A program made the position numbers and the translations under genes. Shown here piece after piece: positions 15,954 through 39,678 of a DNA stretch of 48,029 nt. The number at the start of each line of letters is the position of its first letter. Positions within the stretch are counted from its first letter, which is position 1. The DNA comes from a virus, in IMG/VR virus record IMGVR_UViG_3300025795_000011, positions 1-48,029 of that record, one strand, 5' to 3'. Under the pieces are notes generated by a model. The model did not search any database, was not told where the DNA came from, and saw only the letters and a program-made list of their open reading frames with translations.

Positions 15954-16769
15954 TTATTTGTAATACCTCGCGATCCAGGGAAACCGTGGCGGCTGGTTGA
16001 AGACCCGGTTGCGCCGCCGGGAAAGCCGGTGGTTTGACGGCAGTTGTTCGCCCGCGGGCGCGGGCAGATAGTGCCAGGGCTTTTCCTCGCCGTAGAAAAA
16101 GATCATCCTCGCCCCGGGCGGCGGGGTCTGCTCGTAGCGCAGGTCGGACATGACGTTAGGCCAGCCGAATACGCCGTCGTTGACCCCCCAGCCGGCCTCG
16201 TCCCGGCCGAGGCAGTGAGTGATCCACGCCTGATCTGTGCCGATATGGCCGAGGGCGGCGGCGATCGAGCCATCGCCTTTGAATTCGCTCCAGACCCTTT
16301 CGCGTGCGCCGGCCGTCATCATCCACATCGAGCCATTGTAGGGATTGTTGACGATGCGCGCGCGCTGGGAGTCGATGAAGCGGTGAAAAATCAAGAAATC
16401 CTCGGTCCGCGAAAAGAGCGGGTCGAGACTGTCGAGCACCAGGCAATCGATATCGACCGAGACAAAGCGCGGGCCGATGAGATCCGCCATTTCCCGGCTG
16501 AAACTTTTTAGCCGAACGTAGCAGTGCGGTTTCTGCGGCCCCCACTTGGGATTTTTAAGCTCGCGCCAGTCTTTCCAGAGCGGGATCGGCTCGATCAATG
16601 GATCGAAGAGCGAGACATCCTCCCAGTCGGTGAGACAGACAAACCGGTGCGGCAGGGTGAGATTGCGCTCAATCATCCGCGCGGCGGTGTTGACCCGCTC
16701 CGGGGTGTATTGCTCCTTGCAGAGCGGCGCCCGCCAGAGCCAGAAGAGAACCGTCAGCGGCGCGCTCAT
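15954..16769 (-). CDS. GT8-like glycosyltransferase, paralogue B
   Basis: A 271-aa protein starting MSAPLTVLFWLWRAPLCKEQ; its ATG overlaps the terminase TGA. SVDIDCLVL is the DxD motif; TLPHRFVCLTD, CYVRLKSF, SMWMMTAGARE and FFYGEEKPW align with paralogue A at 11353-12210. Similarity runs the whole length (by eye about 45% identity), so the two arose by duplication or acquisition of related genes, with 3.7 kb of other genes now between them. It probably transfers a sugar to an unknown acceptor. Unlike paralogue A its N-terminus is intact. Confidence 0.78.
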   Translation of the reverse strand: MSAPLTVLFWLWRAPLCKEQYTPERVNTAARMIERNLTLPHRFVCLTDWEDVSLFDPLIEPIPLWKDWRELKNPKWGPQKPHCYVRLKSFSREMADLIGPRFVSVDIDCLVLDSLDPLFSRTEDFLIFHRFIDSQRARIVNNPYNGSMWMMTAGARERVWSEFKGDGSIAAALGHIGTDQAWITHCLGRDEAGWGVNDGVFGWPNVMSDLRYEQTPPPGARMIFFYGEEKPWHYLPAPAGEQLPSNHRLSRRRNRVFNQPPRFPWIARYYK

Positions 16770-18682
16770 ACCCGCAGCACTCCTCTGTCCTCGTAAACGC
16801 TGCGCCCACTGTCGCCGCCAAGATTGCGGATCACGAGCGAGAATGCGTTGATCAGCGCCGAGATGCCGTCGATGTGCTTTTTCGCCTTGCGCTTGTCGGG
16901 CATGAGGTTGTTATTCGGATCGCTCTTGGTGACGACATTGTCCGCCATCCAGCGGAGGACCGGGTGGCCGCCGTGGCGGATCTTGCCGGCCTTGAGGAGG
17001 CGGGTGAGCTGCTTGGTCGGCTCGCTCAGCGTCGGGAAGCCCTGGCGGATTTCGATCATGTTGATGCCGAAGTCTTTTTGCATCGAATTGGAAAACTCGC
17101 GGGCGTTGTAGGGATCGTAGCCAATCAGGTGCGAGGTCTCATAGGTCTTCTGATCGTAAATGGTCTTGACCGGGTAGATTTCCTGGAGCGCGATGAGTTT
17201 CTGGCGCACGGCGCCATAATCCACCGTATTACCCTCGGTCACCTGGATGTGGCCGGCGCGCTCCCAGGCTGTGTAAGGGACGTTGTCGCTCCGCTCGGCG
17301 CGGAGCAGAATCTCTTTTGGCATGAAGAGGTAGGGCACGACGATGAAGTCGTCGCGCAGCTGCTTGAAGTCAATGAACATATAATCAACGCGCGCGGCGC
17401 CGGCGTCTTCCGGCGCCTGGTCCGGCTGCGCCTCGGGGTTGGTCGCCTGGAGCGGCAGATCCTCAGGCGGAAAGAGCAGGACGAGCGCGGTGATATCCTT
17501 GTCGATCGAGAGATCGAGCCCGACCACACAGCTCCGCCCGGCCAGGCGCTTGAAGTCGATCGGCTGGCCGCACTGATCCCAGAGCTCCATCGATATCCAG
17601 CGCGCCCCGGTGGCTGTCCAATAGCAAAAATGTAAGCGACGGGTATTATTTTCCTCCGATGGCATACCGATCGCCTTGACGACGTCATCCTCGATGGTTT
17701 TTCGCGAGATGATTTTGTCGATCGCAGGATTGGCTTTTTCCCAGTGCGGGCCGTAACTCCGCCAGTCGTCACACTCCGCGCAGTTATCCACCGGCTGCTC
17801 CTGTCCTTCATTCCAGTGCTTCTCGCAGGCATCAAGCGCGCAAATAAAGCCGAAGAGACGATCGTTATCGACTGTTTGCTTTAAAATCTTGCTCACATAT
17901 TCGTGATAGTCCCAACAGACCGACTCGCGGGCGGTCCCGGAATTTGTAATCATCATCATCAGCGGATTGCGGCGCCACTTGAAACCTTTGTCGAGCATGC
18001 TGATAACGATATTGCTTTTGTGTTCGTGCACTTCGTCGACAAGGGCCATATGCGGGCGCGGGCCGCTCTGGCTGTCCTCATCCGAGCTGATCGGTCGGAA
18101 CCACGAGCCGGTTTCATGATAAGCGAGGTTCCAACATTTTTCGCCAATGCCGGACTTTTTAAGTCGAATCCTGAGATCCGGGGACTGATCGCGCATGGCA
18201 ACGGCATCGCGGAAAAGAATCATCGCCTGATCCTTCTTGGTTGCCGCTGCATAGATCTCTGCGCGGGCTTCTTTGTCTGCGATCAGACCGGCCATCCCGA
18301 CCCCGGCCGCGAGCGGCGATTTGCCGTTGCCTTTGCCGATCTCGATATAAGCAGTGCGGAAGCGGCGGGTGCCATCGGGCATCTTCCAGCCGAAGAGCGA
18401 GCCGACGATGAATTGCTCGAAAGGCAAGAGATCGAAGGGCTTGCCCTCGAATTGGCCGCCGTTTAGACGCAGCACATTAGTAAAAAATCGAAAGATTTTT
18501 TTGGCCGCGGCGAGATCCCAAAACAGATCGTCCTCCCGCTGGCGATCGCGCAAATGACGATCGCAGGCGAGTCTCACCCAGCGGCTTGCGACAATCGTCC
18601 CGGCACGCACTTTTAGCGCGTAGTCATCGACCGGATCGAACTCACTTGAAGAATTCGTCGGCGGGATTTTCTTCTGTCTCAT
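16766..18682 (-). CDS. terL: Terminase large subunit
   Basis: A 638-aa protein. The ATPase domain has a variant Walker A (EIGKGNGKSPLAAG, ~residue 115), Walker B (HMALVDEVHEHKS, ~residue 215) and MMMITNSGTARE as coupling motif. The nuclease domain begins with VVGLDLSIDKDITALVLLF, whose Asp residues bind metal. This is the Terminase_1 (HK97/phi-C31-like) family. It packages DNA into the prohead and cuts it. The insertion around residues 285-310 (CEKHWNEGQEQPVDNCAECDDW) has several Cys and could bind zinc. Confidence 0.93.
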   Translation of the reverse strand: MRQKKIPPTNSSSEFDPVDDYALKVRAGTIVASRWVRLACDRHLRDRQREDDLFWDLAAAKKIFRFFTNVLRLNGGQFEGKPFDLLPFEQFIVGSLFGWKMPDGTRRFRTAYIEIGKGNGKSPLAAGVGMAGLIADKEARAEIYAAATKKDQAMILFRDAVAMRDQSPDLRIRLKKSGIGEKCWNLAYHETGSWFRPISSDEDSQSGPRPHMALVDEVHEHKSNIVISMLDKGFKWRRNPLMMMITNSGTARESVCWDYHEYVSKILKQTVDNDRLFGFICALDACEKHWNEGQEQPVDNCAECDDWRSYGPHWEKANPAIDKIISRKTIEDDVVKAIGMPSEENNTRRLHFCYWTATGARWISMELWDQCGQPIDFKRLAGRSCVVGLDLSIDKDITALVLLFPPEDLPLQATNPEAQPDQAPEDAGAARVDYMFIDFKQLRDDFIVVPYLFMPKEILLRAERSDNVPYTAWERAGHIQVTEGNTVDYGAVRQKLIALQEIYPVKTIYDQKTYETSHLIGYDPYNAREFSNSMQKDFGINMIEIRQGFPTLSEPTKQLTRLLKAGKIRHGGHPVLRWMADNVVTKSDPNNNLMPDKRKAKKHIDGISALINAFSLVIRNLGGDSGRSVYEDRGVLRV

Positions 18683-19100
18683 CGTCTCCCAGTGTCTGCA
18701 CGCGCGAGCGGCTCGATGGCGTAATGCCGAGCTCGGCGGCGGCGCGGATCATGTCGCGCCTGGCATCGCGTTTTATCCGCAAAAGCGGATTAGTGATTGG
18801 TTTTCCTTTGACGACGATCAAATCGCCGGTTTTTTGGAGTTTCTGGCTCGCACGAACGAAATCAGAATGCGCGTCGCAGTATGCCGCGAGCACGCCGAGG
18901 TCGCAGGGACCGACAAAACCGAGCGGGATGAGATCTTTAACTTGACGCGACCACTCCTGCCGCGCGACCGGATCGAGGAATGCCGGCGCGGCGGCACCCC
19001 TGATCGCCGGTACGGCCGGCTCCTTGGCATTGAGCGGACGATGACCGGGATTGCCTTCGATCACCCGCAAACGCGTCGGTTTCGGCTTTCTTCCCCTCAT
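18642..19100 (-). CDS. terS: Terminase small subunit (P27 family)
   Basis: A 152-aa protein starting MRGRKPKPTRLRVIEGNPGHRPLN, the diagnostic start of P27-family small terminases, followed by EPAVPA, RQEWSRQVKDLIPLG and LGVLAAYCDAHSDF. It recognises the packaging site and hands DNA to TerL, which it overlaps by 41 bp. P27/HK97-type packaging is commonly cos-based and often accompanied by an HNH endonuclease; one exists here at 30986-31333, far away on the map. Confidence 0.9.
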   Translation of the reverse strand: MRGRKPKPTRLRVIEGNPGHRPLNAKEPAVPAIRGAAAPAFLDPVARQEWSRQVKDLIPLGFVGPCDLGVLAAYCDAHSDFVRASQKLQKTGDLIVVKGKPITNPLLRIKRDARRDMIRAAAELGITPSSRSRVQTLGDDETEENPADEFFK

Positions 19101-19465: not shown

Positions 19466-20329
19466 ATGGAACTTACTCTCACGGCGCACGGACAAATCAG
19501 CAAATCCAAGCTGATCAAAGATCTCCGCTCGCGCGGCTACAAAATCAGTTACAATCGCGCGATTTTTGTCGAGCGGCACGACGACTATACGATTGATCTC
19601 GCGCGCCGTCGGCTTTTGACGTGCGAGCACTATCGTCAGCCGCGTAAGGTCCGCGGCGCAAAAGATTATCAGCCGCGGCTCCGCGTGCTCACTCAAGAGC
19701 GATTCCTTGCCTCGCTCAATGTTCGGCAACTCGAACGCGGTTGTTTCCGAGCGAGCGGCGTCACTCTCGCAGACTATCGCGCCGCCGGCGGAGAATGTGT
19801 GGACGAGATTCTCCGCCGTGTCGGCGCCGCCGGCGAGCAGGCGCGCGCGGACGAGACGCGCTATTTCGAGACCTATGACAACGATCAATATTCCAGCAAT
19901 TCGCACGCCGGGCGGGACTGGCGCGAGGTCAGTTTTGCCAGCATTGCGCGCGATTTTTCGCGTGCCATCATCTGCTATGCAGACGTCGGCAGCTTTTTGC
20001 ACAAAGCGGTCGGCGAGGGCGGCCTGCATCATCTGCGCTTCGAGACTTATTTGATCGTGCGCGACTCGACGAGCGGCGATCGACACGTGTTGCGCATCCC
20101 GCCGCGTTTCGGGCGCTATACCAGCGCCACGGTGAGCCGGTTTGCGCCGCGCTGGTATCTCCCCAATTGCGAGCAGTTGAACGGATGGTGTCGCACGACG
20201 TTGATACAACATGGGGAGGAGGGGTGGTATCGCCTCGATGATCTCGATAGCGATAACCTCACTCACGCGGCTGTCGCTTGGACATTTGACCTCGATCCGC
20301 GCGATTATCGCCCGCAGATGACTGCTTAG
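19466..20329 (+). CDS. Unknown 287-aa protein
   Basis: The ATG at 19466 follows a strong GGAGGAGG. The 287-aa product starts MELTLTAHGQISKSKLIKDL. Residues 1-60 look like a small alpha/beta domain with many basic residues (SRGYKISYNRAIFVERHDDY). Later parts contain RYFETYDNDQYSSNSHAGRD and RDSTSGDRHVLRIPPRFGRY, suggesting a soluble enzyme or binding domain. FDLDPRDYRPQ lies near the end. I recognise no family. It shares a direction and promoter with the RHH gene and the downstream small genes. Confidence 0.68.
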   Translation: MELTLTAHGQISKSKLIKDLRSRGYKISYNRAIFVERHDDYTIDLARRRLLTCEHYRQPRKVRGAKDYQPRLRVLTQERFLASLNVRQLERGCFRASGVTLADYRAAGGECVDEILRRVGAAGEQARADETRYFETYDNDQYSSNSHAGRDWREVSFASIARDFSRAIICYADVGSFLHKAVGEGGLHHLRFETYLIVRDSTSGDRHVLRIPPRFGRYTSATVSRFAPRWYLPNCEQLNGWCRTTLIQHGEEGWYRLDDLDSDNLTHAAVAWTFDLDPRDYRPQMTA

Positions 20330-20340
20330 TTCCTTGCTCC

Positions 20341-20365
20341 TGCGCTCTGTCTTTGATAGAGCGCA
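20341..20365 (+). promoter_or_regulatory. Hairpin after 287-aa gene
   Basis: TGCGCTCT and AGAGCGCA form a perfect 8-bp stem with a 9-nt loop, 11 bp past the stop. More GC-rich pairing (GCCGG..CCGGC) follows before AAAGGAG. There is no T-run, so a structured leader or processing site is more likely than a terminator. Confidence 0.55.
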
Positions 20366-20426
20366 GCATGGAGGGAATAGGTCCCGACCACAAAGCCGGG
20401 TGACTGCCGGCAAAGGAGAAAATTTT

Positions 20427-20729
20427 ATGATTAACATGATCCGACAAGGCGATGTATTGCTGATCCGGCGCGAGGCGCCGGCAGAGGCGAAAAAGATCGA
20501 GTCGCGCGGGCTCCGCGTACCGGGCGAGCGGACAGGACATGCCCATGTCCTCGAAGCTGACGTCTTCGAGCAGCCCGACGGCACGCGACTGCTCGCGCTT
20601 TCCGAGCCCAGCACGCTCTCGCACGAAGAGCACGCGCCGATCCAGGTGCCCGAGGGCTGGTGGGAGCCGCGCTTGCAGCGCGAGTTTTCGCCGTCATCGC
20701 GACCGGCGTTGCGCATGCGGTTCGACTGA
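20427..20729 (+). CDS. Conserved small protein with QGDVLLIR / GHAH / HEEH motifs
   Basis: A 100-aa protein with AAAGGAGA before its ATG. IRQGDVLLIRREAP, GERTGHAHVLEA, LSHEEHAPIQVPEGWWEPRLQREFSP form a pattern I know from a small uncharacterised family found in bacterial and phage genomes: QGDV-L at the start, GHAH, then HEEH-PI-(V)P-G--E-R-QREY/FSP. The paired His residues suggest metal binding. No function is established to my knowledge. It is the third gene of the plus-strand cassette. Confidence 0.75.
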   Translation: MINMIRQGDVLLIRREAPAEAKKIESRGLRVPGERTGHAHVLEADVFEQPDGTRLLALSEPSTLSHEEHAPIQVPEGWWEPRLQREFSPSSRPALRMRFD

Positions 20730-20755
20730 GCCGCGCATAAAATGGGAGATCGATT

Positions 20756-21094
20756 ATGCACAAAACACAAGCTGTCGAACAGCTCAAAAAAGTGATTCGC
20801 GATTGCACAGACGAGCAGTACGGCGCCGTCAAAACCATGATGGAGATCGGAGCCGGATTGATGGGATTGCCCGAGGGCGCGCATCTCACGGCGCCCGTCG
20901 ATGTGCAGACGCAAAGACGCGATGTGCTCGCGTCCCTCACCGATGCGATTTACGACTGCGCGGCGGGCGATGACTTCCCCATGCCGCGCGCCGGCGGCTG
21001 GGAGTATGTAATCGCCACTCTCGTCATCGAGCGCGACTGGGAGACGATCGACAGAACTGCGGCCGATCTGCGAACGCGCCATCGCGAGCATTAG
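20756..21094 (+). CDS. Unknown 112-aa protein
   Basis: A 112-aa acidic helical protein (MHKTQAVEQLKKVIRDCTDE) with GGGAG before the ATG. EYVIATLVIERDWETIDRTA lies near the end. No recognised domain. It is followed by a 101-bp leader with hairpins before the ASCH gene. Confidence 0.62.
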   Translation: MHKTQAVEQLKKVIRDCTDEQYGAVKTMMEIGAGLMGLPEGAHLTAPVDVQTQRRDVLASLTDAIYDCAAGDDFPMPRAGGWEYVIATLVIERDWETIDRTAADLRTRHREH

Positions 21095-21152
21095 GACTTC
21101 CACCGGGCGGACTCCCGTCCGAGGGGAGCGGCAGCGGCTAGTCACCGCGCAC

Positions 21153-21175
21153 GCTCCGGTCCGTGAAGCCGGAGC
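21153..21175 (+). promoter_or_regulatory. Hairpin before ASCH gene
   Basis: GCTCCGG and CCGGAGC form a perfect 7-bp stem with a 9-nt loop, followed by two ATCGAAATGAAA repeats. The second of these contains the start codon at 21196, so the first ATG (21181) may be a decoy or upstream start. Confidence 0.55.
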
Positions 21176-21195
21176 ATCGAAATGAAAGCATCGAA

Positions 21196-21462
21196 ATGAA
21201 AACTCTCTGGTTCAAACAAATCTATATGACGCCGATTTTGAGCGGCGAGAAAACTGACACGATCCGGCGCCGGAGCTGCAAGCTCCGCGCCGGGAACGTT
21301 GTCGCTTTTACTGTCGGTCCGCGCCCGCCCTTTGCGCGCGCGGAGATCCTGACGCGGGAAGATATCGACCTGGTCGACCTGGCCGAGTCGCGCGCGGCGC
21401 AAGTAATCACCCTCTACGACAACCGAGAGCCGCTTTGTCGTCTGACTTTCCGTCTGCTCTAA
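21196..21462 (+). CDS. ASCH-domain protein
   Basis: An 88-aa protein starting MKTLWFKQIYMTPILSGEKT, then TIRRRSCKLRAGNVVAFTVG and ARAEILTREDIDLVDL. The sequence K-x(5)-(I/L)-x-G-x-K-T-x-(E/D)-x-R, then GD/NVV-F, is the ASCH (ASC-1 homology) beta-barrel, an RNA/DNA-binding or nucleotide-hydrolysing fold related to PUA and common in phages. Its stop overlaps the stop of the convergent ABC-GNAT gene by 2 bp. ASCH proteins in phages can occur beside nucleic-acid modification genes. Confidence 0.85.
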   Translation: MKTLWFKQIYMTPILSGEKTDTIRRRSCKLRAGNVVAFTVGPRPPFARAEILTREDIDLVDLAESRAAQVITLYDNREPLCRLTFRLL

Positions 21463-22565
21463 CACAATAGCTGCTCCGCGATCTTTCGCGCTGCGGCCGG
21501 GCCGATGTATTCGAAAATGGCGCACGGGCGGCCGCCCATCATGCCGGTCATTCCGCTTTGATTGCGGGCCTTGAACACACCCGGCGCTTTGACTAGTTGC
21601 CAGCTCTGGGATTTACTCCTGACGGCGATAAATGAGGGATGCGCGGGATAGGCGCGCAGTCGATAGCCGAGCGCCTTATAGACCCCGCCGAGCGTATCAT
21701 CGAGCAGCGGGGCGAGCCCGAGCCCCTGCCAGTCTGGCAGAGTGACCACGCGCGAGATCCGGAACATGGGTTGATTCGATTTGCCGCGCGAGATCGGCAA
21801 ATGAAGGATCGCAGAAAAAGCCGCGAGTCGATCATTTACGAAAAGCGCGAAGCAGCGCGCCGCTTTGTTGAGATCGGCGCTCATATAGTGATACGGAGCG
21901 AAAATGTTCCACGTGGAATATGGGACCCGACAAATCGTAATCTGTAGCTCCGGGCGTCGCTGAAGCGCCCTCCGTTGAAACGTCATCGTTGTCGGCTCGA
22001 ATATCCAGTCGGGCTGCAGCCAGTCGACGATGTCATAATGACAGCTTGCCGCGACGAATCGCCGCTTTTGTTTGCGGACATATTTCTGCACGGCATGGGA
22101 CGCAATCTGTCCGACCTGACGATCGACGACTGAGGTAAACTCATCGACCACAATATCGCCTTCGCATTCGATCAGCCGGCGCGCGAGATCGACGCGGAAG
22201 CGCTCGCCATTACTGAGCACTGCATAGGGGCGAAGCCATGAGGGAATCGTGTTGAAACCTACCGCGCGACAGACCTGGGAGATATCGACCATGGACTTGG
22301 ACTTCGCGAAGTCATCGATGACCGACGCCGCGCCCCAATGGAGTTCTTTGACTTTGCCAAAATGGTTTTCGAGGATGGAGCTTTTGCCCGAACCAGACGG
22401 GCCGACGATCAGACCTACGCTCCAATCAAAGTCCTCGATCGGCAGCTCGCCATGCCATTCGACGACGGATTGGGTTTTGCGCGGCACATCGAACATGGCT
22501 TCAAGCTGTCGCGCCCGTCCGGACTGGGATATCGGAATTTTTTTTACAAGATCAATGCGCGGCAT
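21459..22565 (-). CDS. ABC-type ATPase fused to GNAT-like acetyltransferase (COG2401-like)
   Basis: The 368-aa product (from ATG 22565) has an ABC ATPase domain: Walker A GPSGSGKSS (55-63), signature LSNGERFR (~125), Walker B IVVDEFTS (~145) and switch His in ASCHYDIVDW (~182). From about residue 215 there is a GNAT-like domain: PYHYMSADLNKAARCFALF, then FRISRVVTLPDWQGLGLAPL, with the Q-x-x-G-x-(G/A) acetyl-CoA loop. This domain order is COG2401. Its HY motif recalls the Mom group of DNA-modifying GNAT enzymes. No transmembrane segments, so it is not a transporter. It overlaps the ParB-like gene by 22 bp. Confidence 0.85.
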   Translation of the reverse strand: MPRIDLVKKIPISQSGRARQLEAMFDVPRKTQSVVEWHGELPIEDFDWSVGLIVGPSGSGKSSILENHFGKVKELHWGAASVIDDFAKSKSMVDISQVCRAVGFNTIPSWLRPYAVLSNGERFRVDLARRLIECEGDIVVDEFTSVVDRQVGQIASHAVQKYVRKQKRRFVAASCHYDIVDWLQPDWIFEPTTMTFQRRALQRRPELQITICRVPYSTWNIFAPYHYMSADLNKAARCFALFVNDRLAAFSAILHLPISRGKSNQPMFRISRVVTLPDWQGLGLAPLLDDTLGGVYKALGYRLRAYPAHPSFIAVRSKSQSWQLVKAPGVFKARNQSGMTGMMGGRPCAIFEYIGPAAARKIAEQLLC

Positions 22566-23140
22566 ATGTACTTCTGTTTCTCCAATTTCTCGATAAGCTG
22601 CAGCTGCTGATCCTCGTCTTTGCAATCGACAATCACCTGGAACTGATGACTCATCTCTTGATTGCCCGCCTCTTCATCCCCGTCCGGATCGTAGCGTTCC
22701 AGAAGTTTTTCAATATCCACCTGGGATAGATCGACTTTTTCGGCTAAATCATCGAGATCGAGATCGCCCATCTCTACGAATTGCATAAAACTTTCGTCAG
22801 TCATCTCGCCGTACTGACTGGTCAGTAGCAGAATTTTTTCCCGCGCCTCATGGAGGTTCGCAGCCTGGATATAGGCAATCGGCAGCGGAGGAATAATGTA
22901 GCCCGACGCCTGAAGACGGCGCAGCACGCGATCGCGCTGATGACCGTCGAGAATAAAAAGCTCGCCATCGTTCTTCCAAACAAAAAACGGAAAGGAAAAT
23001 CCATGCTCCAGCAGCGCGCGCTTGAGTTTGCGATATCTGTCATTGTCGAGCTTTTTGAGTTTTCCTTGTAGCGGCGTTAAATCCTCCAGCTTGGCAACTG
23101 CCGCGCCAACGCATTTGATTTCTAAAGTTCGCTTTTTCAT
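22544..23140 (-). CDS. ParB-like N-terminal domain protein
   Basis: A 198-aa protein with GGAGAAAA before the ATG at 23140. LQGKLKKLDNDRYRKLKRALLEHGFSFPFFVW, then LFILDGHQRDRVLRRL, matches the ParB/sulfiredoxin-type nuclease fold seen in phage proteins (strand, helix, then DGHQR). A middle segment with YGEMTDESFMQFVEMGDLDLDD follows, as in ParB-like proteins that accompany DNA methylases. Residues 150-198 form a small beta/alpha domain (HQFQVIVDCKDEDQQLQL). It is coupled to the ABC-GNAT gene, suggesting a joint role on DNA. Confidence 0.82.
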   Translation of the reverse strand: MKKRTLEIKCVGAAVAKLEDLTPLQGKLKKLDNDRYRKLKRALLEHGFSFPFFVWKNDGELFILDGHQRDRVLRRLQASGYIIPPLPIAYIQAANLHEAREKILLLTSQYGEMTDESFMQFVEMGDLDLDDLAEKVDLSQVDIEKLLERYDPDGDEEAGNQEMSHQFQVIVDCKDEDQQLQLIEKLEKQKYICRALIL

Positions 23141-39229: not shown

Positions 39230-39424
39230 CTATCTTAGCTGCGCGTCATCATATAGATCCTCCCTGATTTTATCAATGAATTTGTTCAGCCGGTTGCAGC
39301 GCGGGCACTTGAGTATCCCGACGAGGAAACCGTCGAACAGACGGCGGCCGCAGGCGCAGCGCCGGATCGGCAATCCTACTCCATCTCCCTTTGGTAAAGA
39401 TTTATGTGCCGTCGCATCGCTCAT
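39230..39424 (-). CDS. Com-like zinc-ribbon protein
   Basis: A 64-aa protein. LPIRRCACGRRLFDGFLVGI then LKCPRCNRLNKFID resembles Mu Com family proteins (I-C--C-RLL------IKCPRC---N). The first pair is C-x-C rather than the usual C-x2-C. Mu Com activates translation of mom, the DNA-modifying acyltransferase gene. Similar zinc ribbons occur in tail regions of many prophages, so a Com role is not certain. A terminator follows immediately. Confidence 0.65.
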   Translation of the reverse strand: MSDATAHKSLPKGDGVGLPIRRCACGRRLFDGFLVGILKCPRCNRLNKFIDKIREDLYDDAQLR

Positions 39425-39426
39425 TT

Positions 39427-39678
39427 TTACGCCGTCACAAACATCCCGCTATTTTGTATATTGGGTGGTGGGATATAACAGATCTCACATCCAAACTGAT
39501 ACATCCTGACCTCAAGAGACGGTTCAGTTCGGACCACTTCCGCGCCCATCTGATAGGTGCGGGATTCAGAGGGAGCTTCCGTTCGCGCGATATCCGCGCC
39601 ATGCTGATAAATGCGCGTCTCCGGCGTGTCCGTTCGCGCGATATCCGCGCCATGCTGATAAAATCTCGTGTCGGTCAT
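39427..39678 (-). CDS. Tandem YQHGADIART repeat protein
   Basis: An 83-aa protein made of four ~17-residue units: TRFYQHGADIARTDTPE, TRIYQHGADIARTEAPS, SRTYQMGAEVVRTEPSL, VRMYQFGCEICYIPP. Units 1 and 2 are almost identical in DNA too. It resembles small siphovirus tail-tip proteins of the RV-QAGVEVLY-repeat type. Its start overlaps the stop of the lectin-like gene. Perhaps a trimeric or beta-solenoid plug in the tail tip. Confidence 0.72.
   Translation of the reverse strand: MTDTRFYQHGADIARTDTPETRIYQHGADIARTEAPSESRTYQMGAEVVRTEPSLEVRMYQFGCEICYIPPPNIQNSGMFVTA

Follow-up and report, generated by a model that had tools for sequence, protein, structure and literature searches.

A likely phage DNA-acylation module built from an ABC ATPase-GNAT fusion, a ParB-like protein and an ASCH protein

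An ATPase joined to a GNAT domain, an acyl-CoA donor and a nucleic-acid target are brought together in TmcA and NAT10, the tRNA/RNA cytidine acetyltransferases. The ABC-GNAT family was predicted to acylate DNA bases by Iyer et al. 2013, and excerpts of a 2021 article repeat this prediction (PMC7824862); DNA acylation by the ABC-GNAT protein itself is therefore already known as an idea and is not new here. The same excerpts make no mention of a ParB tail, of linkage to an ASCH gene or of a PanD/CoA-transferase operon, some of which Iyer et al. 2013 may describe, and a term search of the Leptospira phage LE3/LE4 paper gave no passage on modified DNA. ParB proteins recur beside modification genes: ParBc-domain proteins lie near the CmoX hypermodification genes of phages (PMC12783734), and a ParB protein accompanies a predicted phage thymidine modification system (PMC11955845). 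From the ASCH family, E. coli YqfB hydrolyses N4-acylated cytosines and deoxycytidines by means of a Lys21-Thr24-Glu74 triad and Arg26 (PMC6972931).

The window analysed here, 48,029 bases, covers the whole of a complete IMG/VR record that carries an HK97-type capsid, a portal, a tyrosine integrase, a P27 small terminase and a large terminase. An earlier note had proposed that three genes in it form a base-modification set. These genes and the terminase genes are laid out as follows.

16766..18682, minus strand: terminase large subunit (phrog_9, 5.5e-147)
18642..19100, minus strand: terminase small subunit, P27 family (TIGR01558 6.7e-19, PF05119 1.1e-22), the downstream landmark of the slot
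21196..21462, plus strand: ASCH-domain protein, 88 aa, convergent with the ABC-GNAT gene (NCBIfam PRK04980 2e-4; PF04266 E=0.004 in the near-identical record L007, below the curated Pfam cut-off)
21459..22565, minus strand: ABC ATPase-GNAT fusion, 368 aa (phrog_11143 8e-96; relatives in IMG/VR, GenBank phages and bacterial genomes)
22544..23140, minus strand: ParB-like protein, 198 aa, with a ParB/Srx-fold N-domain, a helical middle and a conserved C-terminal tail (phrog_498 2e-10, ParB phrogs)

All three genes are present where the earlier note had placed them: the ParB-like gene, preceded by a GGAGA box, overlaps the ABC-GNAT start by 22 nt, and the ABC-GNAT and ASCH-like genes meet tail to tail with a 4-nt overlap. 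A short block of plus-strand ORFs (19549-21462), the last of which is the ASCH gene, lies between the ABC-GNAT gene and the minus-strand terminase genes.

The ABC ATPase-GNAT fusion and its resemblance to Mom

The fusion divides into two domains, with these landmarks (A1, 41 full-length sequences; A2, 74 domain sequences).

21981..22565, minus strand: ABC ATPase domain, residues 1-195, with every catalytic motif invariant
22380..22403, minus strand: Walker A GPSGSGKS, residues 55-62, a motif in the sequence
21462..21980, minus strand: GNAT domain, residues 196-368 (AlphaFold pLDDT 90.1; 307 PDB matches with E<=0.001, led by GNAT acetyltransferases)
21885..21890, minus strand: HY pair, H226 and Y227, invariant in alignments A1 and A2
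21750-21752, minus strand: R272, invariant in alignment A2
21711..21728, minus strand: CoA-binding loop QGLGLA, residues 280-285 (sequence motif, alignment A2)

Judged by sequence, the protein is a member of the widespread phage family phrog_11143, labelled 'unknown function' in the library; the match spans residues 11-358 (E=8e-96), a full-length similarity. The set of ABC motifs is complete (Walker A GPSGSGKS, signature LSNGE, Walker B VVDE, H-loop), and the motifs, including the catalytic Glu, D-loop and H-loop, are invariant across 41 full-length relatives, so that activity of the ATPase is to be expected. Intact ATPase and CoA-binding motifs are likewise what we found on testing for membership in the Iyer-type ABC ATPase-GNAT family, and over 91% of its length the window ABC-GNAT shares 36% identity with the protein of the Tenacibaculum phage pT24. 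Among the best 80 of 366 relatives in bacterial genomes (L119-L198), carriers are concentrated in the Planctomycetota and the actinomycete genus Nonomuraea. Two similar-looking proteins, from an Alphaproteobacteria MAG and a Nitrospira MAG (L123:4826-5338, L142:7113-7769), lie 3' of ABC-GNAT; they have no match in Pfam and are possibly another accessory gene of the module. A known anti-phage defence system was considered and rejected: the PADLOC models do not fit, giving only P-loop-level matches (mad3/mad8) and a ParB-region stretch of MTase_II.

At the level of the AlphaFold model, built from 74 sequences with a pLDDT of about 90, the GNAT fold is confirmed. Invariant residues in the 74 domain sequences are P205, W219, F222, H226, Y227, R272, P277, D278, Q280, G281, P310 and W322. 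The earlier note had pointed to an HY motif as reminiscent of Mu Mom. That motif is real, being invariant in the 41 full-length and 74 domain sequences; membership in the Mom family did not hold up. Residues kept in 14 diverse Mom proteins are H58-Y59, E108, R111, S124, D149 and N163. In a first local profile alignment, a weak match (P=0.011), the HY pair and R272 fall on Mom H58-Y59 and R111; a deeper profile gave P=3.5e-4 and a probability of 37%, with the HY pairs offset by one residue. The Pfam Mom model (PF25680), which detects Mu and Antuna Mom, has no match to the window ABC-GNAT at E<0.1, no invariant residue corresponds to Mom D149, N163 or S124, and the matching region of A2 (74 sequences) holds no invariant Asp or Asn. 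The structural comparison suggested by the earlier note also turned out against it: in a fold search with the GNAT model, Mom first appears at rank 31 of viral structures, behind many ordinary GNATs, and the fold resembles protein acetyltransferases at least as closely as it does Mom. We rejected Mom membership on these grounds, namely the silent PF25680, the weak profile similarity, the unshared D149 and N163 and the unspecific fold. Kinship of the window GNAT to Mom proper is only suggestive, although the enzyme may work in a Mom-like way.

A Com-like zinc ribbon had been cited by the earlier note as a second link to Mu. A zinc-ribbon ORF of 64 aa does exist at 39230-39424, with a similarity to Com confined to 23 residues (pairwise E=6e-4) and no Pfam match. 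It lies ~17 kb from the ABC-GNAT gene in the tail-gene region, and no com gene overlaps ABC-GNAT. The Com-Mom link was accordingly dropped, and on present evidence Com is irrelevant to the module. Next to the zinc-ribbon ORF, an 83-aa ORF at 39427-39678 (minus strand) carries the short repeat R-x-YQ-x-G-A-x-I-x-RT.

A Mom-type system would have the GNAT domain make N6-carbamoylmethyladenine, as in Mu, under Com-like control. The alignment of HY and R272 with Mom H58-Y59 and R111 in one of the two profile comparisons speaks for it, as do the 23-residue Com resemblance and the ParB-like genes that accompany true Mom in the Microbacterium and Arthrobacter phages Antuna and Wyborn; the silent Mom model, the 37% profile probability, the missing counterparts of D149, N163 and S124 and the distant position of the Com-like gene leave us regarding it as very unlikely. 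Aeromonas phage PX29 (L205:332-1216) has an ABC-GNAT gene alongside a true Mom-like gene, which shows that one does not exclude the other.

ParB and ASCH partners in the slot before the terminase

The window ParB matches phrog_498, the ParB-methyltransferase family. Its AlphaFold model matches Noc, ParB and sulfiredoxin; the ParB/Srx fold of the N-domain is matched in that model, and the DGH-R type motif appears as ILDGHQR. The ParB gene sits immediately upstream of ABC-GNAT in 73 of the 74 IMG/VR loci that extend far enough, and in at least 65 of 77 loci from bacterial genomes (from the best 80 of 366 relatives), loci that are not all independent, several being near-copies. Within the IMG/VR set, ParB is almost obligatory beside ABC-GNAT. 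Some lytic phages (pT24, VmeM-32, P12024S) have ABC-GNAT without ParB, which is thus not essential everywhere.

22547..22654, minus strand: C-terminal tail of the ParB-like protein, residues 163-198, containing HQFQVIVDCKDEDQQLQLIEKLEKQKYICRALIL (conserved in partner ParBs; proposed ABC-GNAT docking element)

The ends of the partner ParBs share a stretch of ~34 residues, hhhECxDExxQxxLLxRxxxEGLxCRxL. A profile of this tail detects the ParB proteins from Jace, Axumite, EastWest, Javan141 and three soil phages (L230/L234/L242). In 25 related loci where no ABC-GNAT is visible it matched none of the ORFs, and it also missed the Mom-linked ParB of phage Antuna; the tail is absent from the ParB-methyltransferase control loci. 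In Pseudomonas phage Komp_PAO1_1, the gene before ABC-GNAT (L246:3352-3501) encodes 50 aa that are almost the tail alone, with no ParB domain. The tail therefore appears specific to the pairing of ParB with ABC-GNAT. Because it is absent from ParBs linked to methylases or Mom and is once encoded on its own, the simplest reading is that the tail is probably a docking element for ABC-GNAT and ParB the DNA-binding part.

The small convergent gene was assigned to the ASCH domain from a library match that is weak (PRK04980, the NCBIfam ac4C amidohydrolase model), supported by a KTxTIR signature and by position.

21250..21267, plus strand: KTDTIR, carrying K19, T22 and R24 (aligned to YqfB K21, T24 and R26)

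Pfam ASCH is present in 15 of 50 records with ABC-GNAT. It lies 9-320 bp past the ABC-GNAT stop in 13 of the 15, and 12 of those 13 are convergent as in the window; the naive chance of such adjacency is 4e-18, a figure that ignores the relatedness of the records. As a control, we used 28 phages related through the large terminase, the small-subunit alignment being too divergent for searching. Three of these carry ABC-GNAT, all three with ASCH; one further control phage with ASCH has, at its contig end, the tail end of the CoA-transferase of the operon described below. With that phage assigned to the carriers, ASCH occurs in 4/4 versus 0/24 (Fisher 5e-5), 3 of the 4 carriers being ~93% identical. 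An iterated ASCH search without Pfam drifted into terminase antisense frames (L017, L020, L026-L028), which were left out of the counts. ASCH is truly linked to ABC-GNAT, usually in convergent orientation.

Compared with E. coli YqfB, the window ASCH keeps K, T and R; H70 and D27 are not conserved, and Glu74 has no clear counterpart. Among linked ASCH copies of the short type, most carry Glu where YqfB has Thr, so a hydrolase role would not be general, and reading of a mark is as likely as erasing it.

The ParB/ABC-GNAT pair usually adjoins the terminase genes; in Jace, EastWest, VmeM-32 and P12024S, the ABC-GNAT locus is not beside the large terminase. In phages without ABC-GNAT, the same pre-terminase slot is occupied by fusions of ParB with an N6_N4 methyltransferase. 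Modification enzymes substitute for each other in this slot, ASCH accompanying the acylating type. The survey of co-occurrence, the terminase-matched control and the slot exchange support the earlier note's view of ParB, ABC-GNAT and ASCH as one set, and neither of two findings that would have spoken against it, absence of co-occurrence and absence of an HY-type active site, came up.

Donor genes in relatives and a proposed pathway

A four-gene operon, ParB/ABC-GNAT/PanD/class III CoA-transferase, occurs in the Rhodococcus phage Jace, in the soil phages L230/L234/L242 and in two bacterial MAGs.

L084:4453-7218: operon of phage Jace
L230:735-3868: operon of a soil phage, followed by a convergent ASCH gene and then the terminase
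L120:906-3700: operon of a Thermoanaerobaculia MAG
L181:82-2576: operon of a Gemmataceae MAG

Immediately downstream of ABC-GNAT is the gene for PanD (aspartate 1-decarboxylase), followed by that for a short class III CoA-transferase-like protein; the gene ends overlap or nearly touch. The PanD proteins match PF02261 at 2e-33 to 5e-29; K8, Y21 and G23-S24 (the catalytic Lys, the Tyr and the Gly-Ser self-cleavage site) are invariant, E. coli PanD included. The CoA-transferases are ~55% identical among distant carriers and keep a GDT motif, which we take to be the site of the class III catalytic Asp; searches with this protein returned neither a sequence match in the PDB nor another viral contig. 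PanD and CoA-transferase are present in a minority of loci, and on the ABC-GNAT tree at least four state changes are needed to account for the PanD carriers, so the association is a recurrent one. Together the two genes point to beta-alanyl-CoA as donor, the alternative being a plain boost of CoA. A formyltransferase gene (PF00551) lies directly behind ABC-GNAT in Gordonia phage Axumite (L245:1805-2449), where it is annotated as a tRNA-methyltransferase, and in Pseudomonas phage Komp_PAO1_1 (L246:4610-5224); the ABC-GNATs of these phages are sister branches on the tree. The window has no gene for PanD, a class III CoA-transferase or a formyltransferase.

ParB co-occurrence, ASCH linkage, slot exchange, intact ABC and GNAT motifs and the GNAT fold support the view, which we consider likely, that the three genes are a phage DNA-acylation (hypermodification) module. 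Further support comes from the ParB-fold model and the tail, from ParB proteins beside true Mom, CmoX and the predicted thymidine system, from the PanD/CoA-transferase operon, from the published prediction for the family and from the chemistry of YqfB. Points against it are a GNAT fold that stands no nearer to Mom than to enzymes acting on proteins, lytic phages that have ABC-GNAT but lack ParB, the minority occurrence of PanD/CoA-transferase, the partial dependence of the surveyed loci, and Glu in place of Thr in most short linked ASCH copies. The ParB-like protein would bind DNA, or clamp it by way of its CTP-binding-type fold, and its tail would recruit ABC-GNAT. Through ATP cycling, an ABC dimer could distort or scan the DNA and bring a base into the GNAT active site, for transfer of an acyl group from acyl-CoA to an exocyclic amine (N6 of A or N4 of C). 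Where relatives have PanD and CoA-transferase, the route would run from aspartate through beta-alanine and beta-alanyl-CoA to DNA, the likely acyl group being beta-alanyl. The window phage, which lacks these two genes, would draw on host acyl-CoA, perhaps acetyl-CoA, or on another donor. The ASCH protein, whose window copy has the K/T/R of a YqfB-type N4-acylcytosine amidohydrolase, would bind or remove the mark, and the outcome would be phage DNA protected from host nucleases. More tentatively, and as a possibility short of an even chance, we suggest that the four-gene pathway attaches beta-alanine to DNA bases by an amide, that other branches swap the tailoring gene (the formyltransferase of the Gordonia and Pseudomonas phages) and that the convergent ASCH protein reads or erases the mark.

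Other readings draw on parts of the same evidence. One is a version of the acylation module that fixes the base as cytosine, making it a DNA counterpart of TmcA/NAT10 in which N4-acylcytosine would be made in DNA and erased by a YqfB-like ASCH protein. By fold and sequence, the neighbours of the GNAT domain include TmcA (2zpa) and NAT10, the known enzymatic activity of the ASCH family is N4-acylcytosine hydrolysis, deoxycytidine substrates included (PMC6972931), and the window ASCH retains the K, T and R of the YqfB site; however, the TmcA ATPase is helicase-type and not ABC, other GNATs give better fold matches and the Thr nucleophile is missing from most short linked ASCH copies, and we judge this version rather unlikely. 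The closest PDB folds, which include RimI, Naa50, AtaT and KacT, would also suit an antihost or toxin factor whose acylation target is a host protein, such as RNA polymerase or a nuclease, or an aminoacyl-tRNA, with ParB an ordinary DNA-binding or regulatory protein; a phage GNAT, Rac, acetylates RNA polymerase according to PMC7824862. Such a target is improbable, fitting poorly with the tight ParB-fold coupling and the slot exchange with ParB-methyltransferases, and with the linkage to ASCH, a modified-base domain, and to PanD/CoA-transferase neighbours. The usual position beside the terminase genes could instead mean that ParB and the ABC domain help the terminase or prophage partition, the GNAT activity being secondary, but the four loci away from the large terminase and the GNAT catalytic residues, conserved as strongly as the ATPase residues in the full-length alignment, give this reading little chance of being right.

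If the beta-alanine pathway is real, a GNAT-made aminoacylated DNA base would represent a new type of DNA modification. For more than ten years ABC-GNAT has counted as a predicted DNA-modifying enzyme, and with the PanD/CoA-transferase operon a specific donor and the mass of the product can be named. The ParB tail hints at the way in which the components could come together, and the linked ASCH protein may be what reads or erases the mark. Phage Jace, a sequenced isolate carrying the four-gene operon, makes the chemistry testable. A new acylated base would bear on phage escape from nucleases and could supply DNA-labelling enzymes.

Comparison with known systems

The window ABC-GNAT shares its protein family and predicted function with the Iyer-type proteins exemplified by pT24. 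With Mu Mom (PF25680) it has in common the GNAT fold and pairing with ParB in some Mom phages, and its HY pair and an Arg take similar positions in one of two weak profile alignments; Mom differs in having no ABC domain, no Pfam match links the two, and the Mom-specific D/N residues are absent from the window GNAT. TmcA and NAT10 resemble the window protein in joining an ATPase to a GNAT domain, using an acyl-CoA donor and acting on nucleic acid, whereas their ATPase is helicase-type and their substrate RNA. The phage ParB-N6_N4 methyltransferases (phrog_498) likewise combine a ParB-like module with a DNA-modifying enzyme in the same pre-terminase place; they take methyl from SAM, fuse ParB into one chain and are without the tail and the linked ASCH. 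The small window ASCH keeps the equivalents of K21, T24 and R26 of E. coli YqfB, whereas H70 and D27 are not conserved and the Glu74 counterpart is uncertain. CmoX/CmoY, which form carboxymethylcytosine, share stepwise phage base modification and nearby ParBc-domain proteins (PMC12783734), but use a SAM-derived carboxymethyl group and an amide ligase rather than an acyl-CoA transferase. Beside these systems, what is new here is a near-obligatory ParB with an apparently pairing-specific tail, the ASCH linkage, the ParB-methyltransferase in the same slot and the PanD/CoA-transferase operon.
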